Of a stretch of 64,000 bases of DNA, positions 1-29,370 are shown in pieces. Location: contig JAGTXO010000003.1 in assembly GCA_019448385.1 (NCBI GenBank), positions 434,001-498,000 of the forward strand, given 5' to 3'. The stretch's first letter is position 1. Each line of letters begins with the position of its first letter. This DNA is from Diacronema lutheri (lineage: Eukaryota; Haptophyta; Pavlovophyceae; Pavlovales; Pavlovaceae). Made by a program: the position numbers and the translations under genes. The notes under the pieces were generated by a model. The model saw only the letters and a program-made list of their open reading frames with translations. It was not told the DNA's origin and did no database searches.

Positions 1-3000
1 TCGCCCACGCGCGCAGCGCGTCGCGCACCCGCGTGACGATCGCCTGGTCGACCGCCGCCTCGCCGGCAGCGTGCGCCGGCGCGCACGCCGGCGGTGCGGC
101 GGCAGGCGCGAGCGCGGGCGCGCCGTCGGCGCCGTCAACGCCGACGGCGCCGTCGGCGCGCCGCCACGCGAGCTTCGCCTCGATCTGCTGCCGGACGGCG
201 TGGCAGTGCCGGTCGATGCCGCGCGCGTCGTCGAGCGCGGCCAGCGCGTCCTCAGCGGCGGGACGGCCGCTCGCGTCCGCGACGGCCTGCAGGCAGAGCA
301 GCGCGGCCGCACGCGCGTTGCACGCGCTCTGCGGCTCGGGCGCGAGCGCGTGTTCGAGCTCGAGCGGCGACGCGCCTCGCGCCGCGGCGATCGCGTCCAT
401 CAGCACGTCCAACCGCTGCACCAGCGCCCTGTGCGCGTCGCGCGGCGCGCCCGTCGACGGCGCGCGCGAGCGCGTCGCCACGAGCCCGAGCGCGCGCGCC
501 GGCGCGCCCGCCGGCGTGTGCAGCACGAGCAGCGCCGCGCCCGCCAAGCTCGCGTTGCGCGTGACGAGCGCGAAGATGCGCGTCGCCTCGTGCGCGCCCA
601 CCGACGCCCAGATCGCAGCGCGATCGGCGTCCGTCTGCGCGTCGCACAGATCGCGCACGTCGTCCGGCGCGAGCAGCGCGCCGCCGCCGGCGGAGCGCGC
701 GACGATCGCCCGCGCCTCCGCCACGAAGACGGCCTGCGGCAGGTCGGCGTGGCGCGCGTCGACGATGGCGCGCGTCGCGTGCACGCCGAGCTCCACGCCG
801 CGGTAGAAGGCGCGCGCGTTGGCCGCGCGCGCGTGCGCCGGCCGTCCGTCCGCGTTGCGCCTCGCGCGCGCCTGCTTGCTCGTGCGCGCGAGGCCGTCGC
901 GTGGCGGTGGCGGCAGCGTAGCGAGGAAGCGCGCGGTGGGCGGCGGCGCGCGCACGCCGCGCTGCCGCCGTGCGATGGCCGCGAGCCGCCGGCCCGCCGC
1001 GCTGCCGCCCGCGCCGACGTGCTGCCAGCGGTTGAGCGCCGCCGGTGGCGGCGGCGGCGGCGGCGGCGGCGCGGCGGCGGGCGGCGGCGCGACGGCGGGC
1101 GGCGGCGCGGCGGCGGGCGGCGGCGCGGCGGTGGGCGGCGGCGCGGCGGCGGGCGGCAGCGGCGGCGGCGCGCCGGCGACGGCAGCACCAGTCGGCTTGT
1201 CCGCCCACGCACCCGAGACGCTGTCCCAGGCCTTGCCCGGTGGCGCGCGCCCACGCGGCCGCGGGTGGCGGGCTCGAGCGGCGGGGGGCGGGCGGCCGGC
1301 GCGCCAGTCGAAGACAGGTGCAACCGTGGCGGCAGGCGCCGAGTGCCGCGCGTCGGTCACAGAGCGCGTGGTGCGCGCGGCGACCGTCGCGCGCATGGCG
1401 GGCGGGCGGTGAGCAGCGCCCGCCGGCGCGCCGGCGGGCGCGGCAGCCGGCGCGCCGGCGGGCGCGGCCGCCTCGAGCCCGGCGGAGGCGCCGCGCTTGC
1501 GCTTGCGCGTGCCGCCGCGCGTGCGCCTGCGCGCGCGCCCGCCGCGCGCCCGTTCGGCCTGCGCGTCGCCAGCCGCGTCGCCGGCCGCGTCGCCGCGCCG
1601 CACGTAGACGACCGCGAACGCCTCCTCGCCGGTCCCGTCGACGCCGCCGCGCGCGCGGCGCAGGACCGACCGCCACTGCAGCCGCCGCGCGCGGCCGGGC
1701 TCGCACGCAAACCAGCGCCCACCGCGCCTGACGACGGCCACAAAGTCGTCGTCGCGCCGCCCGCGCCGGCGCGTGCGCAGCAGCACGCACTGCACGTCGA
1801 GCCAGCCCTCGTGCCAGTCGGCCGTGCTGGGGGCGACGCGAATCGACTGCGGGAGCTCGACGCCAAAGCCGGCGAGGCGCACGATGTGCGCGACGATGAC
1901 GCTCGAAATGGCGGGGGCGCTCGACGGGTCGCCCGCTGCAGCGAGCCCCGCCTCGCCCCAGTGCTCACGCGTGACGCAATCCGCGTCCTCGACGTGCACG
2001 TGCGCCACGCTCGCGCCGAGCTGGTGCAGCAACGCGCAGATGTCGGCGTCGACCGTCCTCTCCTCCTCGGCCGCCTCGGCCGTGCCGCGGGCGGCGGCGT
2101 CGCCCGCCGGCTGCCCGAGGTACGCGATCGCCCGCTCGACGGCCGCGCCCTCCGCACGCGCTGCGCTGGCGATCGCCGCATTGCCGACGGGCGCGCGCAG
2201 CGCCGCGATCGCGTCTTGCAACGCCGTCGCGTCGCCCGTCGCCGCCGTCGCCGCCACCGCCGCCGCGCTCGCGGTGCCGTGCGCGACGGCGTGCAGCGCG
2301 GCGGCGCGCGCGGCGGGGATGCGCCCGTCCAGCGCGAGCACGAGCGGCGGCCCGGCCGGCGTCTGCTGCCGCCGGTGCCGCCGGCTCGCAGCCGGGTGGT
2401 CGGCGCGCGCGCGCTCGAGCCGCGCGCGCCGCTCGACGACGCGCGCCCAGAAGGCCTGCACCCTCGGCTGCGCGAATGCAAGCCAGCCGGCGCCGCGCGT
2501 CACGACGTGCACGACGATCCGGTCCTCGTGCCTGAGGTACTGCACGTAGAGCGCTTTGCGCACGCCGAGGACGTGCATGCCGAGCTGCAGCTGATCGCGG
2601 TGCGGCTGCGGCGGCCCGTCCTCGTGCGCCGTGGCGTCCGCCTTGGTGAGCGTCTTCACCTCGACGAGGACCTGCTCGTTGTCTTCGGGGAGGATGGCGA
2701 GCCCGTCCGGCGAGAAGGCGAACGGCGCGCTCTTGTCGTGCGGGTCCGCACGCACCATCGGCAGGTTGCACACGACGGTGATGCCGTACGCGGCCGCCAG
2801 CTTGCGCAGCGCGACGGCCTCGCCGAGGATGCCCGCGGTCGTCGCCTTGGTCCGCACCTCGCGCCGCCGCCGGTGCACGTACTCGTCGGTGAGCGTCTCG
2901 TGCGCGACGCCGGCGTTGTCGTTCACGACGTCGCCAACCTTGCTGCCCGTGACCTCCTCCCATCGCTCGTCGTGCCAGCGCGGGCTGCGCTGCGCGGGCG

Positions 3001-6000
3001 CGCCCGCGCCGACGGCGTCGAGCACGCGGCGCAGCGCTGTGCCGTCGGGCGCAGCAGGCACGCGCGCGCGGTCCTGGGCCTCGCGAGCGTCGAGGACGCA
3101 GCCCGTAGTGGAATCTTGGGGTAGGTCGAGCTTGCTCGCCTCGCCGTAGCGGCTCTCCAGCTGGCGCGGTGCGTCGGCAGGGCCGCCGTCCGTGCGCGCA
3201 CCCGACGCGCCCGCCAGTGCACGGGGCGCAGCGTCCGAGGCGCCCGCCGCGCCCGCGCCGCCGCCAATCGCGCCAGCGCACGCGCGCGCCGCGACCTGCG
3301 GACGGCCAGCCGCAGGGGCCTCGTCCGCTCGGCCGGCCGCTGCGTCGGCCGTCCGCTTGGCCACCTCGCGCACGTCTCCGAGCGCGAGCGTGGCTGGCGC
3401 CGTCCAGCTCCCGTGGCGTTTGTCCCAAAATTTGAGCAGCCCGCCAAGGAAGGGCGTGCCCGTCGGGCGGTCCTCGGGCACCTCCGCCAGGATCGCGTCG
3501 ACGCGCAGCGCGGCCGCCACATCGCAAAACGCGCGCGCGGCGCGCGCCATCCGCTCGGCGCGCGCGCCGCCGTCGTCCGCCGCGCGGCGGATGGCGTGGC
3601 TCACGTGCGCGACGCGGAGCGAGACGACGGCGTGCGCCGGCGCGCCGGCGCCCGTGCCGAGCGTGTGCCGCCGGATGGCCAGCTGCCCATCGCCCATGCG
3701 CGGCGGCAGCGACGCGCACGCCGCGACGGTCGTCGTGCCGGCCGCGCTGTCGCACAGCCAGCTCGCCTCGCCGCCGCCCGCAAACTCAAAGGTCGCGAAG
3801 CCCTCGCGGCCGAAAAGCGCGACGAAGTGGTCGAGCACCGCCTTGTTGATCGCGCGCGCCGCCGGCCGCGTCGATGCGCCGCGGGCAGCGCCACCCGCCG
3901 CGCCGCGCGCATCGCTGCACGTCGCAGGGCAGGTGCAGCCGGACGCGCGCACGCCGTCCGACCGCGTCCGCGGCAGCTCGAGCTCGCGCACCTTGGGGCA
4001 GAACCAGAGCGGGTTGGACGCCTCGAGGCACAGCACGACGAGCCGCCCGTCCGTGCCGGCCAGCGCGCGCGCGTCGCGCAGCAGCTCGACGGCGAGCTCG
4101 GACGTCGCCGCGTGCACCGCCGGCTCGCCCGTCGCGCGGTCGGGCGGGAAGAGGCCGCCGCCGACGAGCGGGCTGGGGCAGCGGCCGAGCATCACGAGCA
4201 GCGGCGGCGGCGGCGTCTGCGGCGCCTGCTGCCCGACCGCAGCCGCCGTCAGCCCGGCCAGGTCGGAGCTCGTGCGGAGGGCCTTGAGCGCGACGCGCGA
4301 GCCGGTGCCCGCCTGCTCGGAAAACGTGGCGAGCATGGCGCACGTGCTCGCCCTCGCGCCGCACTGCCAGCTGACGCGCGCGAGGAGGCCTTCCAGCGTG
4401 TCGTTTTCGCGCGGCCGCGTGACCGCGTCGAGCGCCGCCGAGTCGAGCTGGAGGCTGCCGGGCGTGACGCACAGCACCGCCTCGTGGTAGGCGCGCAGCA
4501 GCTCCCTCGGCAGCTGCTCGGCGGGCGTCGCCGCCTGCCCGCCCACCCACCGTGCACCGTGGCCGCCGTCGCCCGCGCCCGCGAGCCGCACCGCCGGCCC
4601 GCCCGTGATCGCCGAGGTCGGTGGCGTGCCGAGCGCGTCGACGAGCGCGCGCACGGGCGCGACACGCCTGCGCGCAGCGTCCGCGCCGACGGCGAGCGCG
4701 GCGATCCGAGCGCCCTCCCATGCGCGCTCCCTCGCGTCGTCCCGCGCGGCCGCCGGCGCGGCGCCCGGCCGCGCGCCGGGCGGCACCGCGCACGCCGCCG
4801 CGACGACCTCCGCGCGCGCGCCGGCGGCGTCGGGCGCGTGCAGCTGCGCGAGCGCGCCAGAGAGCGCGGCGGCCGAGCGGTAGCGGCCGTGCGCCGCGAC
4901 GAGCGCGTAGAGCACGCGCAGCGCGGCCACGCCCGCCTGGTCGGGCGCGTCGTCAGCGATGCGCTCGACCTCCCACGTGCGCGTGGGCGGCGGGCTGCCG
5001 TCGGCCGGGTCCGGACGCAGCGCCCACGCGCGCTCGACGATCGCGTTAAACACGCCGTGCGCGGCGCCCTCGTCAAACTCGGCGGCGCCCGCCGCGTGCG
5101 CGCACCACCCGTGCACGCGCGACGTGGGCGCGTCCACGGCGCGCTGCACGACGAGCACCGCCGGCCGGTCGACGCAGCCGAGGCTCACCGCCGCGTGCTT
5201 GCCCTCGAGCAGCGCCGCCGCCGCAGCCTCGACCAAGGCGTCATCAGGCGCGTCGCCGACGACGACGGCACAGCCGTCGCCGTACTCGGCCTGCATCGCG
5301 GCGACGCACGACGCGACAAAGTCGCCGCCCGCGGCCGCCGCGTGTCGCGCCGCCAGCATCCGGCGCGCGATGGCAAGCCAGACGTACTCGGCCGGCGCGC
5401 GCGCGGCGCGCGCGCGAGGCGCGCCGGCCGCGCCGCGTGCGCCCGCGCGTGCGCCTCCAGCGGCCGCAACGGCCGAGGCGGCTGGAGCGGCGGTGAGCGT
5501 GCGCCGCGCGCGCTTCGCCGGCCGCGTGATGGGCGATGCACCCGCCATCGCACCGCCCGCAGCAGCCGGTGCGGCCGCCACAGCGCCCGCCGCAACGCCA
5601 CTCGTCACGACGCCCGTGGCGGGCGGCGCGGCGTCGGACGCGGCCGCGTCGACGGGCGTCGCGCAACTACCGCCAGCGGTCGCGGACGCGCCCGGCGACG
5701 CGTCGGCGAGGAGGTGGCGCAGCACGCCGCGCGCGAGCGCGACTCGCACGGCGAGCGTCAGCGCGCGCAGGCGGTCGGAAGGCGAGGCGTCGCGCTCGGC
5801 GTCGGCGGACGTGGCGGCAGCAGGCGGGGCGGCGGGCGGCACGGCGGCGGACTGGGCGGCCGCCGGCGCAACCTCGTCGGCCTTGGCCAGCCAGACGAGC
5901 CCGGCGACTGCGAGCACGACGCTGTACGCGCCGACATCGTCACCCGCAACGCGCGCCAGCCGGGCGTGGGCGTCGGCCTCGGACACGGCGACGCGGAAGA

Positions 6001-6686
6001 GCACGTCGTCGCGGGCAGCTTGCTCGGCAAACTGACGCAGCTGCTTGGCCATCGTCACGCCGGCGACGCACGCCTCGCCCGCCTCTGCCTCGACCTGCTC
6101 GTCCTGGCCGATGGCGGACGCGCCGGCCTCGGCGCCAGCGTCGAGTGTCCGGCGGCGCTCGAGGGCAAAGCCACGCACACAGACGCTCTGGAGGCCGCCG
6201 AGCGCGCCCGCCTTCTCGTGCAGCGCGCACGACAGCTCGACCACCGAGTCCACGCGCCTCGCGGCGGCGCCCCCCCGCTCGCCGCGCGTGGCCGCGCGCA
6301 CGACGAACACCGTGAATTGCGCGCGCTTCGCCGCGCGCGCCGACGCGCACGCGTGCTTCAGGAGCCGGCAAAGCGCGGGCCTTTGCGCCGCTGCGCCCCG
6401 CGTGCACAGCAGCAGTTGGCCGCGCTCGTCGCCCAGCTCCTGCTCGACGGCGGCCTCGAGCGCGTCGTCCGTCAAATCGCCGTGCTCCGTCGAGGCGAGC
6501 GCGCGCGCAGCCGCGAGCGCCAGCTCGCCTGCGCCCGCGCGCCGCCGGCGGCGCGCACCGGCGGGCGCGTGCGGCGCCGACGCGTGTGACGACGCCGCCG
6601 CGTCCGCGCGCGCACACGCGGCGCGCAACGCCTCACGCGCCGAGGCGGCCGCGCGCGCCCTGGGCGCGAGCTTCAAGAACGTGCGC

Positions 6687-6734
<48 letters not shown>

Positions 6735-9700
6735 TCGCCCTCGTCGCCGGCACGCGGCGGCGGTGGCGGCGGTGGCGGCGCGGCCACGGCGGCGGCAGCA
6801 GCGGCAGCGGCGGTGGTGGTGGCGGCGGCGGCGCCCAGCGCGGGCGGCGGAGGTGGCGGCGGCGGCGGAACGGCGGCAGCGGCGGCGGCGTCTGCGGCGG
6901 CCTTGGCGCCGCGCGTCTGCCGCGGCGCTTCGGCAGCGCGATCGCGGCTGCCCCCGCCGCGCACCGCGCCCGCCCCGGCGCAGGCGCCGCTCGGCGCACG
7001 CCCGCTGACCGCGCCAGTCAACGCGACGCGGAGGTGCTCGCCAACAGCGTACATGTCCGCCACGCTGAACGTGCGCGGCGCGGATGCACCGCCCGCCGCA
7101 GCGAGCGCGGCGTCGTTGAGCGCGCCCACCACGGCGAGGCCGCACGTCGCGCCACGCTGCGCCGCGTTGTCGAGCAGCCGCGCGCGGCGCACGGGCAAGA
7201 CGTCGAGGCCCGCCGCGTGCAGCGTGGCGGTTATCGACCTGGCACGCTTGAGCGCCTGCCTGCTCGGCGACGCGAGCGTGTCGACAAGCACCGCGTCGTA
7301 GCGATGCTCGCCCGCGCGCGCGACGCGCACGAGGCGCAACGCGGTGAAATGGCCGGAGGCGGGCGGCGTGCCATCGTCACTGCCCGCACCGCCGCGCCCG
7401 CCCGGCGGGCTCCACATGCCGATGACCGCCTGCGTCGTCGCCTCGCTGTGCAGGCGGTGCAGCAGCGCGGCGCGCTCGGCGCCGTCCTGGAACACCGCGG
7501 GCTGAGCGGCAAGCGGTACGTGGCAGACGCGCCCTTCGCCGGCCTGCCCGTGCACGCGCAGCACGACCTCGCAGCAAGCGTCCACAGTGGAGGCGAGCAT
7601 GTCGCCGCCCGCAATGCAGTCCACCTCTGCCTGCGGGATGCCGGCGCGCGCGGCGGCATCGGCCAGCCGGAGCGCAGCCGCGTCGCCCGCCCACGCGAGC
7701 AGCGCCGGGGCGGCGGACTGGACGTCGCGCTGCGCCACGGCGGGCTCGGCCGCGGCGGGCTGGGCAGCGGCTGGCTCGGCAGCGGCGGGCTGGGCGGGGG
7801 CTGGCGCGGCGGCGGTGGGCTCGGCGGCCGACGATTGCGTGGCAGGCTGCGGCGCGGCCAAGGCGGCGGTCGGGCGGGCGGCGGAGGCGAAGGCGGCCCA
7901 TGCGGCGGCCGAGCACACGGCGACGAGCCAAAAGGCGGTGGCTGCAGACGGGCGAGCGGCCGGAGCAATGGCGGCCCGGACGGCAGAGGCGGCGACGACA
8001 CTCGCGAAGATGCCGACGGCGCACCGGACAGTGGCGACGGCGACGGCGGCACCGGCACACGGGCGGCGGTGGGGGCTGTCGGGCTCGGCGGCAGGCTCGG
8101 CGGCATGCTCGGCCGAGGGCCGATCGGTGCGCGACGGCGGGCTGCGACTCGCGCGGCGGAGCGGCTGCGGTGCGTGCTGGCCGCCCGTCGCGCACCTGCG
8201 CTTGCGCTCGCGGCGCGCGTCGCCGCCACGCAATCGGCGGCCGACAGCCCGCTCTGACCTGTCGATTGATCTCCGCAGCCGGTCGCGCGCGCGCTTTGCC
8301 GCCCGCCGTGCGCGCCGCGGCGGTGCGCGCGGGCACTGGTCGGGCGAGCTGCGCGCGGCAGGCTCGCAGCAGCCGCCGTCGCGTGCGTGCGCGCAGCCTC
8401 GGTCGCACGGCGCGCAAACGAGGTCGTCAGCGCCATCGACGCCGTCGAGGCCGTCGCCGCGCGCTGCGGCTGCGAGCGCGCGTGCCACGCCGTCGTCGCC
8501 GGCCGCCGGCGCCGCTGCGGCGGCCGCGGCGTCGGCTGCACGGCGCTCGGGCTGCGGCTCGAGCGGCGGGACGGCGCCGGCCGCCGCGGGCGGCGCCGTG
8601 TCGAGCGGAGCAGCCGCGGCGCGCGCGCGCGCGCGCGCGCACCCTTTGCGCCTACCGCGAGACGCCACCCGCGCGGGCGCCACGCGCGCCGCGGCTCGGC
8701 GGCCGCGCGACCGGCGGTGCCGGGCGTGGCGGCGAGCGCAGCGCTCGAACTTGCGTCTGGCTCGGTGGCGGCGAGCCGGCGCAGTTGCCGCGCAATGCAG
8801 GGCTGCACGTCGAGGTGCGCCTCGTCGAGTCGCGAGAGGAGCTCGCGCGCGCGAGTGCCGAGCGCGGCGCCGTCGCACTCGGCACGCGCGCCCGCCGGAG
8901 CCACCGAGCCTTCGGGGTCGCGCGGCGCGAGCAGCTCGCGCGCAGTCGCGAGCAGCTCCGCCTGCTCGGCGGTGGGGATGCAGGCGCGGCGCAGCGCGAG
9001 CTCTGTGTGCGCGGGCAGGTGGGCGCCCACGGCCTCGGCGTGCATGAGTAGCGCGCGCGCCTCCGCAGGTGCGTCCGCCTCGCCCATCTCGGACGCGGCG
9101 AGCACGCCCGCCGCCTCAGCGGCGAGCGCGAGCCGCGGCGACGCGAGGTCGCGCAGCGACCGCAGCAGGTGCGGAGGCAGCGCGTGGCCACGCGCCTTGA
9201 CGCGCTCGAGCAGGGCGCGCGCGCGCGCTGCATCGTCCGCAGAGCCCAGCGCGCACTGCTCGATCAGGCGGCCGGCCGCGCGCTTGTCCTCGCGAAAAAG
9301 CTGCTCGCGGTGGAGCGCGCGGCGGGTCTCGCGCTTGGCGAGCGCGTCGGCACGCGCCCTGCAGCCCTCGTCGGCGGCGGCGGCGAGCTCGGCAACGCCG
9401 CCAGGCTCGGTGGCGGCGGCAAGCGTGGCGGCGACGGCGCCTACCTCAGCGGCAGCAATGCGGTCGTCAGCGCGCTTGGCGGCAGCGCATTTGACGGCGG
9501 GCTGGTCGGCTGGCTTGGCGTCAGGCACGGTGGGAGGCTGGGCCGTGGACTGGGCGGCGGGCTCGGCGGTGGGCTTGGCAGCGGCTGGCTTGGCGGCGGG
9601 CTCGGCGGCGGGCTGGGCGGCGGGCTGGGCGGCGGCGGGCTCGGTGGCGGGCACGTCCGCCTCGGCCAACAAGAGCGGCTCGAAGCGGTTGCTCGCGCGC

Positions 9701-11589
9701 ATGCTGGCGCGCGGATGGCTCGGCGGCAGAGCAGCGGGCCGAACGCCAGCGCCCGCGCCGAGGCCTGGCCGCGCTGGCTGCCAGGGCTGCTCGCGCTGCT
9801 CGCGCTGCTCGCGCTGCACGCGCTGCACGCGCTGCTCGCGCTGCTCGCGCTGCTCGCGCTGCTCGCGCTGCTCGCGCTGCTCGCGCTGCTCGCGCTGCTC
9901 GCGCTGCTCGCGCTGCTCGTGCTGCGGGCACCACGTGCGCTTGCGCCAGTTGTGCTGCGCATCCCCGCCCTCCGCTGCCGGCTCAAAATTTGCGCATGCC
10001 CAGATTTGGCCGCGCCCAACAATTGGCGTGCGCTGGTCCTGCGCGCGGCCGGCGGGCAAGAGGTCGGGCGGGCGGGAGGCGTAGGGGATGCGTGAGGGTG
10101 CTGCACGCTATACGCGCAAACTTTACCTGGCGCGAGCGCAAGCGCCGGGCGCCACGCTGTGGACAGCGGACGGCGTGCGCGTGCGAGGCACTCACCGCCA
10201 TTGGCAATGCGCGCGTCGCGGAGACAACTTGGCGGGCCTCGCACGCAGCTGGGCCGATCGCCGCCGCAGAGGTGTCTGCAGCCGTCTCCGCGATGCCGAT
10301 CGTCGCATCTGTTGGCACCGCTGCCATCTGCCGCACCCGCGACCAGGCTGCCGACAGGGTCGGCGCGTCGGGCGCCGAGCTCGGCCACGCAGGCGATGCG
10401 GCCGACGGCGGTGACGCTGAGCCCAGCGCCGGGTCCAACGGTTCCGCGTCGAGCCGGCTGTAGAAGAGCATGCTCGCACCACTTGCCCACGCCAGCGCGT
10501 CGGACTGAGACAAGTTGTGCATCTGCGCGGGCAACGCGCGTGCGTGCGGCAGGCGCGCGGCGCGAGCTTTCAGGCCACGCGCGCGTGCCGCGCGGGAGGA
10601 CGGGGCGGCTGCGGCTGCGATCAACCGCCGGTCGCGGCGCCAAGCGGCCGTGCGCGCCGCCGCACGTTGTCGTCGTCGCACAGAAACCAAGCCCCGTTGC
10701 GGAGCACGATGGCGACAAGGTGCCCGCTCGTCGACTCCTCGCCCAAGTGCACGACGGCGGCGACGAGGAGGTAGTCGCGCCCGCCGAGTAGCAGCCGCGG
10801 CGCGCACACGAACGCGTGCTTGTTCTTGCACTGCGAGCCATTGCCGCGCGTCGTGCGCGGCACCTCGACGGCAATGCTGGCTGGCATGAGCACGTCCGAG
10901 CGGCACGCGTCCGGGCTGCCACCCTGCGGCGGCCCAGCGACGCCCCCCAGAGCGTGTGCGAGCGTGCGCGCCGCATCGCCGCCAATGCTGACGAGGATGG
11001 CGATGCCCTCACCGCGCTCGCTCGAGGCCACAGCGATCGGCTCGAGCACTACGCGTCTGTCGTCTTCGAAGGCAGCAGCGAGCCCGGGCACTCGGCCGAG
11101 TAGCATCTGGAAGAACTCAGCAGCGTCCTGCTGCGTCCCTCGCGTGCCACGGCCCAAGATGACGTCGACGACGGACACAAGACACAGCTGTGCCGGCGCC
11201 TCGGTGTCCTCGAGCAGCGTGCCAAAGTCCCGAAAAAGCGCCTTCTCGACTCTTCCCGCACGGCGCGAAGCGGAGCGGGGCATCGGACGGAGCACGTTCA
11301 AGGCGACGAGCGATTGCGCGAGGGCGTTCACGTAGCACGCGTTGCCCTCGTTTTTCACGCCTGCGCCGCGCCGCGCAGCGCCGGGTGTGCGGGGTGCGCA
11401 CGCAAGGTTTACGGCGGGTCGGAGAGAGGCCGACTGGGAACGCGCCGAACCCGGCGAGCCGTGCAGGCGCTCACCACGCGGCACGTCGGGCACTCTCACC
11501 GGCCACATCGGGCCGATGAACGCGCCCCCCACAGGCTGCCGGCCGACGACTCGGAAGTTGCTCCAGGCGCTGCGCCGTGCACGCGTCAT
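1..11589 (-). CDS. Giant multidomain protein: USP peptidase, Ulp1-like peptidase and YqaJ nuclease (C-terminus beyond left edge)
   Basis: I read this as one gene of four exons: 11589-10666, 10504-10127, 10038-8656 and 8551 to beyond base 1. The introns (161, 88 and 104 bp) begin GTGCGG, GTAAAG and GTAGGC and end CTCAG, GCGCAG and CCGCAG; all are phase 0, and each join restores an open frame. The product in the window is over 3,740 residues. In order it has a ubiquitin-specific protease fold, an EQR-repeat linker, a low-complexity Ala/Pro region, an Ulp1-like (C48) protease, poly-Ala and poly-Pro tracts, a long unrecognised middle, a YqaJ-type nuclease and a basic, Pro-rich tail. The last exon shows no stop over about 8.5 kb. 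The ATG at 11589 is the first in frame before the USP domain; an upstream exon is possible. The domain set resembles large DNA transposon proteins more than a housekeeping gene. Sure of the domains, less sure that all exons form one transcript. Confidence 0.7.
1036..1170 (-). repeat. GGC-rich microsatellite coding Ala/Pro run
   Basis: Imperfect GGCGGC and GGGCGGCGGCGCGGC repeats on the plus strand. On the minus strand they encode alternating short Pro and Ala blocks near the visible C-terminal part of the giant protein. The tract is in frame and looks like a disordered linker. Confidence 0.8.
2480..3020 (-). other. YqaJ-type PD-(D/E)xK nuclease domain of the giant gene
   Basis: The minus frame reads TAGILGEAVALRKLA, then FSPDGLAILP (Asp at 2705-2707), then VLVEVKTLTKA (Glu at 2660-2662, Lys at 2654-2656), then HRDQLQLGMHVLG. 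This is the YqaJ signature: helix, D, 15 residues, ExK, then a QxQxGM helix. YqaJ proteins are phage and transposon exonucleases that resect DNA for recombination. All active-site residues are present. The location after two peptidase domains in one protein is unusual. Confidence 0.8.
6687..6900 (-). repeat. GGC trinucleotide repeats coding poly-Ala and poly-Pro
   Basis: A pure (GGC)n run at about 6690-6732 followed by mixed GGC/GGT repeats. In the minus frame of the giant gene they give long alanine and proline runs just after the Ulp1-like domain. Confidence 0.85.
7120..7620 (-). other. Ulp1-like (C48) cysteine protease domain of the giant gene
   Basis: The minus frame shows the C48 catalytic order His-Asp-Gln-Cys. 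These are GHFTALRLV (His at 7349-7351), DAVLVDTLAS (Asp at 7280-7282) and AQRGATCGLAVVGAL (Cys at 7142-7144, Gln five residues before it). Spacing is 23 residues His to Asp and 46 Asp to Cys, close to yeast Ulp1 (17 and 49). The upstream segment beginning DCIAGGDMLAST could match the strand-helix region before the His. Known members cleave SUMO or related tails, and Ulp1-like domains are common in large eukaryotic DNA transposons. Assigned from motif order only. Confidence 0.6.
9784..9926 (-). repeat. 9-bp coding minisatellite (EQR repeat)
   Basis: About 15 tandem copies of the nonamer GCGCTGCTC (plus strand), with a few CAC-for-CTC variants. On the minus strand they encode a run of Glu-Gln-Arg triplets with some Val replacements in exon 3 of the giant gene. 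The unit is three codons, so copy-number change keeps the frame. The product would be a highly charged, helical linker between the USP domain and the rest. Confidence 0.9.
10440..11370 (-). other. USP (C19) deubiquitinase domain of the giant gene
   Basis: The Cys box reads NEGNACYVNALAQSL with the nucleophile at 11335-11337. It is followed by GTQQDAAEFFQMLL near 11110-11150 (the QQDAxEF box). The His box reads YLLVAAVVHLG and then SGHLVAIVL, with the catalytic His at 10720-10722, and ends WFLCDDDN. The usual C-terminal motif (A-Y-x-L-F-Y) appears as GASMLFYSRL only after splicing out 10505-10665, which supports that intron. The domain is about 300 residues, short for a USP but with all catalytic boxes, so it is probably active. 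In this setting it may process the polyprotein or remove host ubiquitin marks; that role is inferred. Confidence 0.85.
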
Positions 11590-13290
11590 GCGCGCGCTGT
11601 TGCGGGCTACGCAGCAGAAACGACGGGGGAATAGGCGAGCGAGGGTTGGGCGCAGATCAGCGTGGTGGCGCGGCAAGACGAGCGCGCGCCGGGCGCCTGG
11701 CGCGGAGGCGCCCCGCGCGAGGACGCGAGCCGCTTCTCGCACCGGACGGGCGCCCACGCGCAAACCGGCTTTAGAGGGCCAGATGGATGGTGGCCGATGA
11801 CGAATCAGCGCGGCACCCGCCTTTGAAAAAGGGCGTCGCGGCACTGCCCGAATGCGGTACGGACGAGCCGGGCGCCATGCATGGAACGATGCGACGGCGG
11901 CGCGAGCGCGGGACGATCTTGCCCAGGCAATTGTGCGCGTTCAGCGGGCGGCGCGCGCGTTGCGCGTGACGGGGCGCCGAGCGGCACACCGGCGGGGACC
12001 CGCTCGCCGCTGCCGTGGCATCCTCCGCTGCCGGCGTGCTGGCACGCACGCGCATTGCCGGCGCGAGGGGACGGCGAGTGCGCCTCGGCCGAACAGGCGC
12101 GAACGTTACGCCCGAGCGCGTGGCCGAGCACCGGATGGAAGCATGCTTCGTCATGCGGCGGCGACCCGCGCCGATTGCACGCAGCGCCGGCCTAGGCGCG
12201 CATCCGCCCGACGCGGATTTGGACGACGCGTCGACCGGCACGCCGAGCGTCTGCGTCTGCCTCGCGGCCGGTCGCGCCGGCCCCTCTTCGGCTCGCGGCC
12301 GCACGTGCGCCGCGCGCCGCTTCGGCGCGCGGCGCGGCGCGCCTGGAACGCGCGGAACATACGCGCGGTGCGCGGGCACGCCCGCAACGCGCCATTCCAG
12401 CGCGAGCAGTTCGGCAAGCTTGCAGCGCGCGAGCAGCCGGGCATGTGCCGCGGAAACACAGTTCGCTGTGTGCGCCGGCCGCGACGACACGGCGTAGCGG
12501 CGCGAGGCTGGCGGCCGGGGCCACGGGCGTAATCGTGGCGCGACGCCATGGCATGAGTAATAAATCCATGAGTAATAAATCACGGGCCCAAGCTCACGCG
12601 CTCTACGGCCTCTCCCGCATGGCGTGTCGGATCCGCCCCGCAGCCAGGACCGCATTTTCGCTCGGCCACGCAGCGGACCACGGCGCGTTGTGCGCGCCCG
12701 GCGCGAGTGGTGCGAGTGGCGGGCCAAGCCGCGTCGCCCACGGAGCCCGCCCCCGGCTCGGCGGCACCGCTACCGCTTGCTCGCCGGGCCGCGCACCGCC
12801 GTCGCCGCCGCTGCGCGCTTGCCCTGCTTGCCGGCAGGCGGCGGCGGCGGCGGCGGCTGAGGTTGCGGCAGCGGCGCGAGCGCGACGCCGGACGGCGGCA
12901 GCGCCGACGGCACGCGCGCGGCGGCGACCCACGCGGCGTCGGGCAGCGCGCCGGCTTGAGGCCCCTGCTTGCCGGCCGCATTGGCGCCGCCCAGCGCGCC
13001 CTAGAAGGGCGCGCAGGTACGCGGGCCAGTTGCGCGGCGCGCGGTGTTGGCGAGCACCCGCCGGCTGCGCGTCGGCCGCGAGCGGCGCGGCGGGCGTCGC
13101 GCCGGCGGGTGCTGGGCAGCACCGCGCGCCGGCGTCGCGCCCGCCGCCAGCGCGCCGCCCGCCGCCGGCGCCGCGCGCGCCGTCCGAGCCGCGCCCGCCG
13201 CGCCCGCCGCCACCGCGCGCCGCCGCCGCGCATTCGCGCGCGGCGGCGACGGCGGCCGCGGCGAACGCCGCCGCCGCCGCCGCCGCCTCG
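11590..13290. other. Stretch without a recognised gene between the giant gene and the helicase
   Basis: No frame here has a family I recognise. The minus frame from about 12600 to 13290 continues the helicase reading frame as Ala/Arg-rich low complexity and may be its C-terminal tail. A direct duplication of CATGAGTAATAAATC lies at 12552-12581, an AT-rich island in GC-rich DNA. An unseen 5' exon of the giant gene may lie in 11600-12550. Confidence 0.5.
12551..12581. repeat. 15-bp direct repeat, AT-rich
   Basis: CATGAGTAATAAATC occurs twice in tandem. It is one of the few AT-rich spots in the first 15 kb. It lies between the helicase remnant and the giant gene, so it could be a mobile-element edge, but no matching copy was seen elsewhere. 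Confidence 0.7.
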
Positions 13291-13294
13291 CCAC

Positions 13295-14860
13295 CGCTGA
13301 CCGCGCGGAGCACCTCTTTGAAGACGACGGTGCGCGTCACAGGGTCCGGGCCAAGCGCAAAGCGGATGCGCGACGCGTGCCCGACGCGCGAAGCGGCCAC
13401 GTAGAGCTGGCCGTGCGTGAAGCACGGCTCGGCGAGCCACACGCCCGCGCACCCGAGCGCTTGACCCTGCGCCTTGTTACGCCGGCCGCACCGGGAACTG
13501 GCGGTGCAGCCATGCAAACGCGAACGTGCCCTCGTCGGGCGAGTGGTGGTCGATGCGCGCGATGAGCACGGTGCTGTCGCGCCCGGCGGCCGCGCCGGGT
13601 CGCGCGCACTCGAGCAGCCGGCCGCCGGCGCGCACGCCGCGCACGACCAGCCGCGTGCCGCTGCACAGCCCCTCGCCGAGCGAGAGGAGGCGAGTGGCTA
13701 CGAGCTCCGCCGGGTAGGCCGAGACGCCTCGGGCAGCTGCACGGGATCGAGCGGGAATGCGCCGGGCATGGCCCCCGCAGGCGGCACCGCCGCGGGAAAG
13801 GCGCCGTCGCCGAGGCTGCGCGGCAGCTTCGCCCACTCGCCCGCGCCGAGCGCGTCGCCCGTGTCGCGCGCCGCGTTCGAGGCGCGAGAGTTCTCGACCA
13901 AGGCGTACGGCCGATCGTGCTGCCACGATGCCGAGTACTCGAGGCAGGAGCGCACGATCTGCGCGCGCGAGCCGCGCCGTACCACCGGCAAGCACTGGCA
14001 AAAGTCGCCGGCGAGCAGCAACGTCTTGCCGCCGAAGCGCTCGTCGACGCCCGTCACGTCGCGCAAACACCGATCGAGCGAGTCGAGGCGGCCCCGCTTC
14101 TGCATCGGCGCCTCGTCCCCCACGATCATTCGCCGCGGCGGCCACGGAGCGCCCGCGCTCGGAGCGCGGCACGCCATTGAACGGCTTGCCCGTCCGAGTC
14201 GGCGCCGACGGGCACCTTGAAGGTCGAGTGGAAGGTGCGGCCGTCGGGCAGCAGCGTGGCGGCGACGCCCGAGGACGCGCACACGACGACCGCGTGCCCA
14301 TCCGCGCGCACGGCGGCGATGATGGCGCGCTCGACGAACGTCTTGCCCGTGCCGCCCGGCGCGTCGCAAAAGTGCAGCCGGTCGCCCACGCCGCGCAGCG
14401 CCGAGTCGACGACCGCGCCGTGGAGCGCGCGCTGCTGGCCGGTCTCGGCCATCGCCGCGCGCGCCGCCGCCGCGCTCGCAGCCTGCTCGGCGCGATCGTA
14501 GCCCTGCGCGCGCGCGAGCTCGCGCCCGCCCGGCCCGGCCGGCGCGCGCGCCGTGCGCAGACCGGCCACCGCCGCGAGCGCCGCCGCGCGCTCGCGCTCG
14601 TCGGGCACGTACAGCCCCGTGGAGTCGAACGTGTCGGCCCAGGCGGCCACGCTGTACGAGGCGAAGGCGTCCGAGCCGGGCTGCGGCCGCTGCTCGGCGC
14701 GCTTCGGGAGCATGACCCCGCACACGTTCCACTTGGTGCCAAACATCGAGCCCGTGAGCCCCGTGTAGACGCAGTCGAGCTGCGTGGCGATGGCGCAGAC
14801 GTCCTCGTGCCGGATCTCGTCGACCGGTTCGCCATCCGTGGCGTCCAGGATGGCGACTGC
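13295..14860 (-). pseudogene. Pif1/Helitron-type DNA helicase, broken
   Basis: The minus strand carries the Helitron/Pif1 helicase motifs in correct order. These are PGGTGKTFVERAI (Walker A) with SSGVAATLL and GRTFHSTFKVP, then MIVGDEAPM (motif II), LLLAGDFCQCLPV (motif III), TFAFAWLHRQFPVR, NKAQGQALG and THGQLYVAASRVG. The sequence is spread over three reading frames with about three frame changes, and a few residues are lost before the NKAQGQ motif, so it is not a working gene as read. An N-terminal segment upstream (to about 14860) is open. No HUH Rep domain was found beside it, so it is either a Helitron fragment or the helicase of another transposon. It lies on the same strand as the giant gene. 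Confidence 0.85.
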
Positions 14861-15010
14861 GCCCGGGCCGTGACGCCGCGGCGTCGTTCGGCTGCGTCAC
14901 GGAGGAGCGCCATCCGTGCGCCACGGAGGAGCGGCAGGACCACGACGCGGCGTGACGCTGGACGACGCCATGCTGTCGAGGCGCCATGCTGTCGAGCCGC
15001 CATGCTCCGA

Positions 15011-15331
15011 GGCGCCGCCGCTTTCTAAAAGGGTGTAGGGTGTAGGGTGTAGGATGCAAAACAAGCCCTCCCCACATTTGGGCCCGACGTCACTCCTTCT
15101 TCCGTCACAGCGTCATTCCTTCTCCCCCTATGGGACTTTCATAACCGTACTTATCCTACACCCTACACTATGTAAATACTTAGAGAATAGATCCATCCTA
15201 CACTGAGTAAAAGTACTCGTATGTGAGTAACGTCACGGCTTCGAAGAAGGAATGACGTCGGGCCCAAATGTGGGGAGGGCTTGTTTTGCATCCGACACCC
15301 TACACCCTACACCCTTTTGAAAAGCGGCGCC
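15011..15331. mobile_element. Palindromic MITE with telomere-like termini
   Basis: Terminal inverted repeats of about 90 bp (15011-15103 and 15242-15331) match almost perfectly. Each starts near GGCGCCGC, runs through AAAAGGG and three TGTAGGG-type repeats, and ends near GACGTCA and TTCTTC. The 138-bp centre is AT-rich relative to its surroundings and contains a further TCCTACACCCTACAC. No transposase is encoded; short open frames starting inside both ends are by-products of the symmetry. It sits at the 5' side of the helicase remnant. Near-identity of the arms suggests recent insertion or gene conversion. Confidence 0.85.
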
Positions 15332-15746
15332 GAAGGTGGGAGGAAGCCACCCGTATGCGCGCGTTTGAACGTGCGCGGACGGCCGTTGGCTTCGCGCCCT
15401 TTCGCCCACGGTTTGCGCGCCAACGGACCAGTCCTCCGCAGGCGCCGCGCATCGTCTCAGAGGCGGTCGGTGTGGTATGCCGCGCGCATCGTCAGCGCCG
15501 CGGCGTCGAGCTCGGCGGGCGAGGGCGCGTACGTGACGCCGCTCAGCACCTCGTCCGCGCCCGCCCTCGTCGCGCTCGCCGCCTCCGCAGTGCGCGCAGG
15601 CGGCTTCGTGACGGCACGCGAGGCCACGCCGCGCGCTGCAGGTGCCTTCGCGCGCTGCATCGTCTGTCTGCCGGTCCGACGCGCTCTGCTCTGAACGAAC
15701 GGACGGCTCGCCCGACGAGATCTCGTCGCGTGCTCGCTCGCACAAC
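15332..15746. other. Spacer 5' of the decayed plus-strand gene
   Basis: About 400 bp between the MITE and the first plausible ATG (15747). No recognisable gene. The plus frame of the downstream gene is open from 15642, so the true start could be earlier. Confidence 0.4.
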
Positions 15747-22744: not shown

Positions 22745-23580
22745 TCGTCTGGGGCAGCGGGTTGCGTTGGGCACTGCGCGCCCACCCAGCGCGCAACGGC
22801 GGGAACAACAGCCGCGTGAGAGGCTCGCCGCCGCTGCCGCCGCCGTGCGCGAGAGAAGAGAAGGCAGGGGCTCAAAGGAAAGCCTCCAGCAGCGCGCGAT
22901 TGGGCGCGGGCGAGTGCCCGGGCGGTGTGCGCGCAGTCGGCGGGCTTGTGTCACCCGCCGCGTCGGATTGTGCGTGCCCGTCGATCGACACGCACGACGG
23001 ACAAGCCTGGACCGCGCCCTCGCCTGCGCGGCGTCGCAAAGGGGGGCCAGCTCAGGTCGGGTCGCGCGACAGCGTCTGCCAGCGCCGGCCTCGTGCGCGC
23101 GAGCGCGCACCCCGGTACGCCCGGCCCAACGGCCTCCCGCGCAGCACGCCGCTGCAGCCGGTGCGAGCGCCCGTCCGTGCGGCGCTTGAGCAAGCCGAGC
23201 TCGCTTAGCGCCGACCGCGCGAGAAGCGCAAGCCGAAGGTTGAGCGCAGAGCGCGCAAGCCGAGCACGTTCGCCGTGCCGCGCCGCACGGAGCCGCGCGC
23301 GTTGCGTGCGGTGCGGCGTGGCGCGGCGCGGCGCACGGTGTAGCTCGCCGCGGGCGCGCGCACTCGCACATGCCCGCATCGGCGCGCTGGCGATCGTCCG
23401 CGCACACGTCGCCATCGGCCGTCGAGGCGCATGCACCCCTTCTCCGTTCCCACGCAGAGCCCCGCATCATGCCCATGCCCCATGCTAACGACACTTACCG
23501 GGTCGGCGGAGGGGCGTGCACGGGGCCGAGGCGTGACGAACGGAGCGAGCGAAAAGGGCGCACGCAACGTCGGGCCGAAG
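22745..23580. other. Stretch without a recognised gene
   Basis: About 830 bp after the lipase stop. Frames are open but Arg/Ala-rich with no family resemblance, and no repeats of note. Probably spacer or old retroelement debris. Confidence 0.45.
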
Positions 23581-24120
23581 TCAGGGCGTCGACCCTGTGC
23601 ACGCCGGCAGCGGGGACGGCCGGGACGGCAAGGACGCGGCAGGACGCGGCATGGGCGGGCACCCACACGCGCCTAGCCACCCTCCGCCGCCATCGCCACG
23701 TCGGCAGCAGACGCCGTCCACACCGCCGCAGGCGTCCACGTGCGTCCACGTCGCCTGGACGCCGTGGGCGGCGCGGCGCTGCGGCGGCGCCTGCCCGCGC
23801 GCCATCTGCGCGCGCGCGAGCAGGAGCTGCGCGTGCCCACGCACGACGCACGCGGCGAGCTGAAGGCGTGTGTGCCGCTCGAGCACCGCCCGGGCGACGG
23901 CACGCGAGGGCGCGCCCATGCGCGCCATCCACGCGTCCGCGCCCATGTGCGAGAAGGTGGCGAGCAGGTCAGCGAGGCCGGTCGACCACTCGTCCAACGA
24001 GCCGACAACCAGCGCGCGGATCGGCGGGAACGAGTCGAGGCGAGCCTGCATCGGGCCCACCTGGCCCGGCTGCATGCCGAAGAGCTCCTCGTCGAGCTGG
24101 GCACACGCGCGCGCCGACGG
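23581..24120 (-). mobile_element. Retroelement end-domain fragment, inverted
   Basis: The minus frame reads VGPMQARLDSFPPIRAL, VVGSLDEWSTGLADLL and HMGADAWMARMGAPSR. This is clearly homologous to the C-terminal 130 residues of the plus-strand fragment at 25570-26010 (VGPMQRRLHEFPPLQAV, HMGADAWMARMRAPTR), at roughly 60% identity by eye. The likely start of homology is near 24120 and it fades near 23600. It is a fragment only, in opposite orientation to its neighbour, so the two were not copied as one unit. Confidence 0.75.
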
Positions 24121-24149
24121 CAGCGTGGGGCAGGATCGATCCGCTCCAC

Positions 24150-26015
24150 ATGGCCACGCTCGAGGCCTGCCGCGGCTCGATCCCGCTCGGCTCGGTGCCA
24201 GACGGCGCGGGTGGCGCGCATTACGGCATCGATGTCTACGGCGTGCCCATCGGCGCGCGCGAGTATGTGCACTCGACCCTCAGCACGAAGGCCGACGAGC
24301 TTGCCGGCAAAGCGAACAACATGATTCAGTCGCTCGGCTCGTCGGACAAACAGTCGCTGTGGGTCGTGTTGCGCTGCTCGTTCCAGCACCGCTTCGCATG
24401 GTTCACCTCTAACTCCTACCCTTCCGACGCGGCCGGCGCGGCGGCGATCTACGACGCTGCCGTCCTTCGGGTCGCCACCGTCGCCCTCGGCGTCTCGGTG
24501 TCCACAGATGCTCACGCCTGCCGCCGGCTGTTCCTACCGGTCGCGCAGCACGGCGGCGGCCTGCGCAGGCAGGCCGACTCTGCGCTCGCGGAAGTCTGGG
24601 GCGCAGCGTGGCGGGTCGTGCCACACTTGCTCGACACGCTCGCGCCGGACGGCACGGTGCTCATGCAGGGCATCCTCGACCGCCCGGCCATCGCAGCTCG
24701 CGTCGGTCGCGGCGCATTCGAAGACATGCCCACGCAGGGCTGGCGCCAGTTTTTCGCCTCGGGCTCGCGCCTAGGCGGCGAGCTCGAGGCGACGTGGAGT
24801 CGCATGCAGACGGAGCTGGCCGGATGGGGGCAGCAGCCGGACGGCGTGGAGGTGCGCGTGCTGCACTTGCCCGCTGGGTCGGTCGCACCCGCGGCGCCCG
24901 ACGCGGGTCGCAGGCCCAACCTGCAGGCCGACATCACCGGCGACCGCGAGCGCTGCCGCCTCGCGATGCTCGACGCGGAGCACGCCGCCATGCCCCCCTC
25001 CGCACGCGCGCGCCAGCTGTGGTTCGCACTCGGTCGGGAGAGCGGCTTGTTTCTCTCGTTGCTGCCGCGCGGCCTCGGCGCCTTCTCGTGCGCGGAGTGG
25101 GTCGAGGCCACGGCGCGCTACTTTGGCCTGCCGAGCCCGGCATGCGCGCCGCTCGCGGCGGCGGGCGCGCGCCTCCCGCGCAGCGGCGCGCAGCGGCCGG
25201 TGCCCGTCGACGCTTACGGCGACTCGATCGCTGCGGCGCCCGGCGTCGCGCACGACCACTTCGCCAAGCTTCGGCATGACCCGGTTCTCGCCGCGGTCGC
25301 GTCGCTCGCTCGCATGGCGGGCGCCTACGTGCGCCTCGAGGACAGTGACATCTTCGGCTCCGTGCTCGCCGGCGTGCCGGCCGCGGGCCGCCGTGCGCTC
25401 GGTCGCCGGCGCGTGCCGACAGTCGACTTCGTCATCGCGCTCCGCAGCCAGCTGAACCTCTTCGAGCTCAAGACGCTCGCCTTCTGCCCGACGCGCTACA
25501 AGCCGTGGGCGGACGCCCGACGCTGCGGGGCAGTGGAGCTGCGCGCGCGCGAGGTGCCGAGGGAGCGGCTGCGCGAGTGCGTCGCGCTCGACCGGGAGGT
25601 CTTCGCGGCGCCAGAGGGCCACGTGGGCCCGATGCAGCGGCGCCTCCACGAGTTCCCGCCGCTGCAGGCGGTCGTCGTCGGCAGTTTTGGCGAATGGTCG
25701 GCCGGGCTGGCTGCACTCCTCAAGACGCTCTCGCACATGGGCGCGGACGCGTGGATGGCACGCATGCGCGCGCCGACTCGCGGCGCCGCCCAGGCGTCGC
25801 TCGAGCGCGTCATGCGCCACCAGCTCGCCGCGTGTGTGGTGCGCGGGCACGCGCAGCTGCTGCTCGCGCGCGCGCGCATGGTGCGCGCGGGGGCCGCGCC
25901 GCGTCGTGCGGCCGACCAGGCGGCGGAAGCGGGCGCTGACGCGTGCGGTGGTTTGGACGGCGTGTATCGCCTGCACGCGGGCGGCGGCACGCGACCGGCA
26001 GCGCGCGGCGGTTAG
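24150..26015 (+). mobile_element. Retroelement fragment: reverse-transcriptase C-terminal part plus PD-(D/E)xK-like end domain
   Basis: One open frame of about 620 residues. Its first part (YGIDVYGVPIGAREYV, SSDKQSLWVVLRCS, FTSNSYPSDAAGAA, PVAQHGGGLRRQADSA) follows the pattern found after the polymerase core in non-LTR-type reverse transcriptases of algae and oomycetes. The last 250 residues (VPTVDFVIAL, LFELKTLAFCPTRY, VVVGSFGEWSAGL, CVVRGHAQLLLARARM) form an end domain with a PD-ExK-like set D...ExK. The catalytic polymerase core is not present upstream, so the element is incomplete at its 5' side. The frame is otherwise intact, which suggests a young insertion or continued use. Assignment to the LINE class is inferred from this domain order. 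Confidence 0.7.
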
Positions 26016-27231
26016 GCACGTGCGGGCCCTTTGGGCCCGTCGGGCCTCGCTGCCCGCTCGCTGGTGACCGGGATGCGCGGGAATCGACGACATTGGTGGC
26101 TACTCGATTCCCCCGCAGCTGGTGCTGACCCCGCTGTCCTGACGTAAGCGCCGTTTATTACTTCCCATACAGTGCCTGACCAGGTCCTTAAGTAGAGCGC
26201 TGACTCACTCACCGTCGCGTGCACGGCAGAGCATCCGTCGTTGAGCAGCAGGATGCGCTCAAGGACGGGGGCGAGCGCAATCCTCTTTGCGATGCAGACC
26301 CGATGGAAGCAGGCAAAGACGACGGCGTGCCGAAAGATCTGCGTGCGGTTCAACCCGCCGCAGGCGATGCCGTGCGAGCCATCAATGTCCAGGTCTCCGC
26401 GCGGGTAGTACATGCCGCCGTGCATGTTGATGTTCGCCTCGTTGAACACCGCCTGCGTCTTCTGCACCTCCGCCTTTAGCCAAAGCCCTTGCTGGAAGTG
26501 CGGCGCGAGGTCGCGGAGCACCTGGTCGGCGAGCGGCTTGAGCTTGAGGTTGTCTCCGGCAATGTTCTCGCAGAAGAACCTGTTGTACAGCGCGCCCGGC
26601 GCGGTGGACGATTCGTCTGGGTAGATCGAACGCAAAAACCACGTCAGCGTCTCGCGCAGCTCGTAGACCACGGCGTACTTGGCCAGCTGTGCGAGGTGAT
26701 CCCGAGCATTGGCGCGAAGCTCAACGATCAGCTCGTCGCGGCTCTTGATCAGCTCGTCGCTTTTCTTGATCACCTCGTCGCGGCTCTTGATCAGCTCGTC
26801 GCCTTTCTGGAGCAGCGTGGCATACGTCTGGAGCATGTCCTGAAAGGGCGCCCGGATGTCCTCTTGCACGTCGCCCGGCACGAGGCGGCCAAACCACCAG
26901 GGCAGTTTCGGCCCCTCTGTCGGCGACGACGCGCCTGCGGCGGGTGCGCACGCGGTGCGAGGACCGGCGCGTCAGCGGCGATCGTCACGAAGCGCACGAC
27001 TCGCTCATGCAGGCGCGCACCTGTGCTCATCCCCGACTTGGACGAGAGCACCGGCAGTGCGCACATCCGCGATGCGCACATCTGCTGGATCTGCGACCGT
27101 GCGCCTGCGGCGAGTGCAGCCAGATGGCGAGGGAAGACGCGTGAAGCAGGTGGCGTCACCCGACGCTCAACGCACCCGTGCAACCGCACGCGCGCACCTG
27201 TGCGCACCAACGTCGTGTACATTCGGACCAT
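26012..27231 (-). CDS. Array coiled-coil protein, copy 1 (two exons)
   Basis: Exons 27231-27021 and 26934-26012; the 86-bp intron starts GTGCGC, ends CCGCAG and is phase 1. The join gives a 377-residue protein beginning MVRMYTTLVRTGARV. Exon 2 reads GPKLPWWFGRLVPGDV, then four heptads of the type KSRDEVI, then AVVYELRETLTWFLRSIYPDE and GGMYYPRGDLDIDG. The heptads predict a coiled coil, so the protein probably oligomerises. The family is not recognised. The C-terminus differs from copies 2-4, because a deletion of about 70 bp fuses it to flanking DNA. It diverges from the plus gene at 27278, with 46 bp between starts. Confidence 0.65.
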
Positions 27232-28169: not shown

Positions 28170-28223
28170 CAGTGCCTGACCAGGTCCATAAGTAGAGCGC
28201 TGACTCACTCGGCCAGTGACGAG

Positions 28224-29323
28224 TCACATCGGCGACGGCATCTCCGGCTCGGGCGGCCGCGGAATGTACGCGCCCTTCTCGATCGTCGCGTGCACGGCAG
28301 AGCATCCGTCGTTGAGCAGCAGGATGCGCTCAAGGACGGGGGCGAGCGCAATTCTCTTTGCGATGCAGACCCGATGGAAGCAGGCAAAGACGACGGCGTG
28401 CCGAAAGATCTGCGTGCGGTTCAACCCGCCGCAGGCGATGCCGTGCGAGCCATCAATGTCCAGGTCTCCGCGCGGGTAGTACATGCCGCCGTGCATGTTG
28501 ATGTTCGCCTCGTTGAACACCACCTGCGTCTTCTGCACCTCCGCCTTTAGCCAAAGCCCTTGCTGGAAGTGCGGCGCGAGGTCGCGGAGCACCTGGTCGG
28601 CGAGCGGCTTGAGCTTGAGGTTGTCTCCGGCAATGTTCTCGCAGAAGAACCTGTTGTACAGCGCGCCCGGCGCGGTGGACGATTCGTCTGGGTAGATCGA
28701 ACGCAAAAACCACGTCAGCGTCTCGCGCAGCTCGTAGACCACGGCGTACTTGGCCAGCTGTGCGAGGTGATCCCGAGCATTGGCGCGAAGCTCAACGATC
28801 AGCTCGTCGCGGCTCTTGATCAGCTTGTCGTCTTTCTTGATCACCTCGTCGCGGCTCTTGATCACCTCGTCGCGGCTCTTGATCAGCTCGTCGCCTTTCT
28901 GGAGCAGCGCGGCATACGTCTGGAGCATGTCCTGAAAGGGCGCCCGGATGTCCTCTTGCACGTCGCCCGGCACGAGGCGGCCAAACCACCAGGGCAGTTT
29001 CGGCCCCCCTGTCGGCGACGACGCGCCTGCGGCGGGTGCGCACGCGGTGCGAGGACCGGCGCGTCAGCGGCGATCGTCGCGAAGCGCGCGACTTGCTCAT
29101 GCAGGCGCGCACCTGTGCTCATCCCCGACTTGGACGAGAGCACCGGCAGTGCGCACATCCGCGATGCGCACATCTGCTGGATCTGCGACCGTGCGCCTGC
29201 GGCGAGTGCAGCCAGATGGCGAGGGAAGACGCGTGAAGCAGGTGGCGTCACCCGACGCTCAACGCACTCGTGCAACCGCACGCGCGCACCTGTGCGCACC
29301 AACGTCTTGTACATTCGGACCAT
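28224..29323 (-). CDS. Array coiled-coil protein, copy 2
   Basis: Exons 29323-29113 and 29026-28224 give 337 residues with five heptads, in frame. The C-terminus is EKGAYIPRPPEPEMPSPM, shared with copies 3 and 4 and therefore the likely ancestral end. Intron and architecture are as in copy 1. Confidence 0.65.
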
Positions 29324-29370
29324 GAGGCGGCCGTCCCGCATTACTTTCGTTGGGTTAAATCGCGTACAGT

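Follow-up and report, generated by a model that had tools for sequence, protein, structure and literature searches.

Exonucleases of the YqaJ/lambda type prepare DNA ends for annealing-type recombination by resecting them. Deubiquitinases recur in eukaryotic transposons and in viruses, and the reason is unsettled. Ulp1, OTU and, in one case, C19 peptidases occur together with transposases (PMC2836005), the deubiquitinases of Helentrons are active, and the VTD domains of zebrafish Helitrons show deubiquitinase activity; the authors of the Helitron study suggest that transposition proteins are thereby protected from degradation (PMC9741609). YqaJ is present in ISL2EU transposons (PMC4482050). 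In herpes simplex virus, UL12, an exonuclease likened to lambda Red, directly binds the host deubiquitinase USP15 and draws it into the nucleus; there, viral DNA in replication is enriched for USP15 (PMC13157150).

The locus analysed here, a USP gene and, behind it on the same strand, a giant open frame with a YqaJ domain, shares some features with each of these systems. Helentrons and Helitrons with OTU or VTD domains likewise hold a helicase, deubiquitinases and a nuclease together. Compared with these elements, the locus has a USP peptidase, a YqaJ instead of an AP-type nuclease, and a separate, decayed helicase, and neither an HUH Rep nor element ends were found. ISL2EU, of the PHIS superfamily, has YqaJ in common with the locus (PMC4482050), but it has a DDE/THAP transposase, which was not found at the locus, and the available part of its description mentions no deubiquitinase. 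The Ginger1 and Mutator proteins (Ulp1 or OTU) and a Trichomonas transposase (C19) resemble the locus in their ubiquitin- or SUMO-cleaving peptidases (PMC2836005), but they carry transposase domains, none of which was found at the locus, and YqaJ is not mentioned for them in the available part of the source. The herpes simplex alkaline nuclease UL12 with USP15 pairs a 5'-3' exonuclease with a USP, as the locus does, at replicating DNA (PMC13157150); in the virus, the partner is a USP of the host, bound in trans, whereas at the locus the USP and the exonuclease lie side by side.

For transposons, deubiquitinase or SUMO-peptidase domains (PMC2836005, PMC9741609) and, separately, YqaJ (PMC4482050) have already been published. 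A literature search returned nothing that joins YqaJ with a Helitron; most subscription journals lay outside its scope, so the combination may be described there. Searching for YqaJ, Ulp1 and transposon together brought up only work on Mimiviridae, and no title or opening of an abstract among the matches listed described the combination.

Organization of the locus

The window, that is, the whole 64 kb stretch of DNA analysed, has a G+C content of 74% overall (66–81% in 2-kb steps) and is dense with codon-biased frames on both strands. Its neighbouring genes are eukaryotic in kind: an NBR1-like protein with PB1, ZZ, NBR1 Ig and UBA domains, a SEP-domain protein, a protein kinase and a Myb protein. 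The kinase is split over two frames of one strand, and a 161-nt GT–AG intron read between them restores the HRDLK motif; introns of such size therefore occur in the window. Rfam and tRNA scans of the whole window gave no matches. The USP and YqaJ domains, their order and their common strand, and the adjoining helicase relic, can be read directly from the DNA; they are listed below together with the claimed and candidate parts.

13200–14896, minus strand: decayed PIF1-type helicase, fragmented over three frames, with no recognizable 5' part
10666–11589, minus strand: USP exon 1 (Pfam UCH, E 5.9e-14; codon scan; catalytic codons checked)
10523–10665, minus strand: intron 1, GT–AG, 143 nt
9986–10522, minus strand: USP exon 2, completing the USP fold (ASMLFYSRL), with UCH matched to the profile end; ORF 11008–9986
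10039–10126, minus strand: claimed intron 2, the sole join from USP to the giant frame
8656–10038, minus strand: claimed exon 3, with a firm coding signal from about 9700 down
8552–8655, minus strand: claimed intron 3; alternatively, a GC run at which the frame changes
2–8551, minus strand: giant frame, stop-free over 2850 codons as far as the window edge
7016–7693, minus strand: candidate Ulp1/C48-like segment, by motif only (His codon from 7351, Asp from 7282, Gln from 7159, Cys from 7144)
2531–2995, minus strand: YqaJ/lambda-exonuclease-family domain (profile matches, D...ExK, DQLQ)
1571–2098, minus strand: segment suggestively like the C-terminal half of a USP by alignment, with Asp at the place of the catalytic His

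The USP deubiquitinase gene

The catalytic boxes of a USP had been claimed in the preliminary description, and our analysis bears them out. The motifs GNACY, TQQDAAEFF, SGHLVAIV, CDDDN and MLFY correspond to the Cys, QQDA, His and Asp/Asn boxes and the C-terminal LFY strand. The catalytic Cys codon lies at 11335–11337 (in GNACY), and the His codon at 10720–10722 (in SGHLVAIV), followed by FLCDDDN. Exon 1 alone matched the Pfam UCH (C19) profile with 52.7 bits and the unspliced ORF 11940–10624 with 55.7 bits; with exon 2 added, the score rose to 64.2 bits against a cut-off of 23.9, and the match reached position 254 of the 254 in the profile. The nearest solved sequences, in a search of PDB sequences, were USP46, USP12 and USP14. 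These results confirm a predicted USP (C19) deubiquitinase on two minus-strand exons (11589–10666, and from 10522 down). Its start codon is uncertain, the codon scan giving a clear coding signal from about 11325 down and a weak one above.

The last strand of a USP (AYxLFY) usually follows the Asp box by about 20 residues. Here the frame of exon 1 stops shortly after CDDDN, and the strand MLFYSRL stands in another frame, past a GT–AG intron. This intron had been placed at 10505–10665. Its existence is supported by homology, through the rise in UCH bits, while its boundary at 10505 gives way to 10523: the acceptor at 10523 yielded 64.2 bits and that at 10505 yielded 59.4 bits, both reaching the last profile position. 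Intron 1 thus appears sound, though slightly shorter than first claimed. Read without intron 2, the frame of exon 2 is open as far as a stop at 9983–9985.

The giant open frame and its YqaJ domain

The giant frame (8551–2) consists of islands of ordinary composition separated by Ala/Pro-rich linkers, and its codon-position G+C is 0.82/0.66/0.90; the whole minus-strand frame, 9115–2, spans 3038 codons. Long shadow frames are common in the window, and a second frame across this stretch runs for 1040 codons without a stop, as would be expected if the giant frame had opened by chance at 80% G+C and its domains had been read into noise. However, in 300 shuffles of the same 9115 bases the longest stop-free run had a median of 579 codons and a maximum of 1090, and a run of 2850 codons was reached in none. 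Together with the codon-position bias and the independent profile support for the YqaJ domain (PHROG and NCBIfam matches), this led us to reject a chance frame, which we consider highly improbable.

The claim of a YqaJ nuclease with a D...ExK site stood up to profile comparison. The domain matched PHROG 434 (RecE-like) with E 1.8e-16 and NCBIfam TIGR03033 (lambda-exonuclease family) with E 2.4e-7, the latter at 31 bits, below the cut-off of 68; the Pfam YqaJ profile gave 21.4 bits, slightly below its cut-off of 22. The motif SPDG...EVK is followed by DQLQ, with the Asp codon starting at 2707, the Glu codon at 2662 and the Lys codon at 2656. By tblastn, 25 of 50,697 phage records matched (Escherichia, Pectobacterium and Dickeya phages), the best with E 1e-5 and 28.6% identity over 65% of the query, and the relationship is accordingly distant. 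In a pairwise alignment with one phage protein, SPDG and the DQ.Q motif line up, with a gap near ExK. A search of PDB sequences returned nothing relevant to YqaJ. A YqaJ/lambda-exonuclease domain is thus confirmed in the giant frame, and nuclease activity is predicted for it.

Peptidase-like segments within the giant frame

An Ulp1/C48 peptidase had also been proposed, and for this we obtained the H-D-Q-C order and no profile match: segment 7693–7016 gave nothing in Pfam at E 10, in NCBIfam at E 1 or among PDB sequences at E 10. A loose H-D-Q-C pattern, written after the sequence had been seen, occurred once in the protein and also in 16 of 2000 shuffles; a stricter one, likewise written afterwards, finds Gln and Cys one residue too close. 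Single-sequence AlphaFold2 modelling of the segment gave a pLDDT of 45, and Foldseek returned no match at E 0.001. The confirmed YqaJ stretch reached a pLDDT of 35 with the same method, which therefore failed on a known domain, and the structure result is evidence neither for nor against a peptidase. The segment at 7016–7693 is retained as a C48-like candidate, by its motif.

We also compared 36 segment pairs for internal repeats, with 200 shuffles each. Several degenerate C48-like domains repeated within the giant frame were considered and rejected, as the pairs needed (D1–D4a and D3–D7, p 0.04 each; D5–D6, p 0.015) did not exceed what is expected by chance from 36 tests. The only pair to stand out was that of the USP and a segment located after YqaJ (0 of 200 shuffles, z 5.7). 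When this segment, 2098–1571, is aligned to the C-terminal USP half, FVAVVRRGGRWFACE pairs with LVAIVLRNGAWFLCD, and Asp takes the position of the catalytic His. The score of the whole segment against the USP was reached in 9 of 4000 comparisons when the segment was shuffled and in 2 of 4000 when the USP was shuffled; the score of the C-terminal parts alone, which were cut after the alignment had been seen, was reached in none of 4000. Among 291 windows from real ORFs, two outscored the pair, both of them overlapping Ala-rich windows of the NBR1-like protein. The segment matched nothing in Pfam at E 10, and the search of PDB sequences gave chance matches only (best E 0.95). The alignment is suggestive of a USP-like domain that lacks the catalytic His. 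If this second USP is real, a dead USP relative would stand in the same exon as the nuclease, and the link between USP and YqaJ would be independent of intron 2.

Relation between the USP gene and the giant frame

In the preliminary description, the USP and the giant frame formed a single polypeptide, a fusion that hangs on intron 2 (10039–10126). The splice dinucleotides are present, and the donor, CAG/GTAAAG, is good. In one scoring, neither the tail of exon 2 (10330–10121) nor the first part of exon 3 (10030–9941) had a net coding signal. With the other background, exon 3 was weakly positive at 10050–9901 (+5.2), and in the 9-nt repeat stretch that follows, the opposite strand outscored the minus strand. 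Neither intron 2 nor the fusion could be confirmed from these flanks. An in-frame ATG at 9702, where the firm coding signal begins, offers an alternative start for a separate giant gene. The frame of exon 2 terminates by itself at 9983, and two genes are as likely as one polypeptide. The repeat lies at 9786–9925 (9-nt unit, 15.6 copies in tandem, 97% matches); on the minus strand it reads as Glu-Gln-Arg repeats, and it is untranslated if the giant gene begins at 9702.

The third claimed intron (8552–8655) was not upheld either. The frame shifts at a 22-nt GC run (8619–8640), and for 8610–8551, a stretch that the claimed intron includes, the downstream frame has a coding score of about +8. Of 19 GC runs of at least 12 nt in the window, three coincide with a same-strand frame change, 13 with no change and three with a strand change. 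The three frame changes are those at the kinase intron, at claimed intron 3 and in a Fanzor-like gene that seemed to leave no space for an intron. Two of the five runs that reach 16 nt have a frame change; the longest of the five, at 26 nt, has none. As frame changes coincide with some GC runs, including the one in the Fanzor-like gene, an indel, either genomic or introduced by the assembly, is a reasonable alternative to intron 3.

The helicase relic upstream of the USP gene

The PIF1-type helicase relic lies on the same strand as the USP and ends approximately 1.7 kb before the USP start. Motif I is in one frame (Pfam PIF1, E 6.5e-19) and the next motifs are in another (E 2.7e-24), and the frame scan detected at least three frame changes. 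The two C-terminal pieces had no helicase match in Pfam; one of them matched DGF-1_N with E 4.9e-4, below the cut-off. The last motifs of the relic, HGQLYVAASRV...VVFKEVL, are presumably typical of Helitron helicases, and we take the relic to be Helitron-like. Helitron_like_N (HUH Rep) was found neither in the helicase pieces, whose 5' part is missing, nor in the nine ORFs between 14900 and 17836. Between the relic and the USP, from about 12,750 to 11,550 (about 1.2 kb), there is little coding signal, the best same-strand window scoring +2.7. The relic could be left over from an element with which the USP and the nuclease arrived, or it could come from a dead element that has no relation to them.

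At the 5' edge of the relic there is a foldback (15013–15102 and 15243–15332) with 90-nt arms that are 94% complementary and a 140-nt loop; it contains short CCTACAC-type repeats.

Origin of the locus

We tentatively favour, at less than even probability, the view that the locus consists of a USP gene and then, on the same strand, a giant multidomain YqaJ gene (two adjacent genes or, less surely, a single one), and that both stem from a large mobile element, perhaps one of the Helitron or Helentron kind. In favour of this view are the USP boxes, the YqaJ domain, the stop-free frame with its strong codon-position bias, the suggestive His-less USP-like segment beside YqaJ and the published precedents, and the same-strand helicase relic about 1.7 kb upstream is circumstantial support for a mobile origin. 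In such an element, deubiquitination by the USP would keep proteins of the element itself, or a repair factor of the host, from being turned over, the YqaJ exonuclease would resect DNA ends or process replication intermediates, and the USP and the exonuclease would act at the same DNA. A USP next to a phage-type recombination exonuclease would then tie ubiquitin control to DNA-end processing in transposition, in parallel to the herpesvirus nuclease that recruits a host USP. A bolder version, which we regard as improbable, is a Helitron-related large element of a new class, with one giant protein of more than 3,000 residues carrying an active USP, a dead USP-like domain, a C48-like peptidase and a YqaJ exonuclease; if true, rolling-circle or recombination-dependent copying and ubiquitin control would be combined in one polypeptide.

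Only slightly less probable is that these are ordinary, non-mobile host genes, two or one: the USP would be a divergent one, the giant protein would be nuclear and would have acquired its YqaJ nuclease, the function would lie in DNA repair or replication, and the helicase relic would be an unrelated dead element. The long intact frame has a codon-position bias like that of its neighbours, which are themselves of host type (the NBR1-like receptor, the kinase and the Myb protein), and the gap of about 1.2 kb between the decayed helicase and the USP has little coding signal. Because the helicase is decayed and the giant frame intact, the two need not belong together. The giant gene is also single-copy within the window: blastp of ORFs of at least 120 residues and blastn of the window against itself revealed no second copy. 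We know of no host family with the architecture of a USP and a giant YqaJ protein. Against host genes, the best YqaJ match is a phage family, YqaJ is known in ISL2EU transposons, and deubiquitinases recur in transposons. The locus might also be a fragment of an endogenized large DNA virus or polinton-like virus, with YqaJ and cysteine proteases serving replication and protein maturation; the best nuclease profile, a phage RecE-like family, speaks for this. YqaJ is mentioned in algal giant virus papers, and polintons encode an Ulp1 protease (PMC11071308). We consider this origin unlikely, since the USP part contains an intron and since Pfam searches of 48 of the 55 codon-biased ORFs of the window found no capsid, packaging ATPase, integrase or viral polymerase. 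In the same 48 ORFs there was likewise no Pfam match to a DDE transposase or a Helitron Rep, which, like the lack of a second copy in the window, counts against a mobile element. Six scans of viral contigs and one of prokaryotic genomes gave pattern matches and no confirmed relative, a result that counts against a mobile element and, for the viral contigs, also against a virus; the scans used short exact peptides and reach close relatives only. Positions 1–14900 had no match to phage DNA.

Other features of the window

Three further features were noted. A Fanzor/TnpB-like gene is located at 33874–35100 on the minus strand (Pfam Cas12f1-like TNB, E 3e-6, 27.7 bits against a cut-off of 26.3); its frame shifts at a 16-nt GC run (34997–35012), and a RuvC-I-like ADPNMG was read by eye in the second frame. 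From 26213 to 33471 there is a tandem array of units of about 2.0–2.06 kb, approximately 95–98% identical, each with a divergent ORF pair, the plus-strand ORF of which is 30–33% identical to part of the adjoining ORF 23244–26012. Finally, the plus strand encodes a DUF5690 protein at 51987–53636 (E 7.1e-47).
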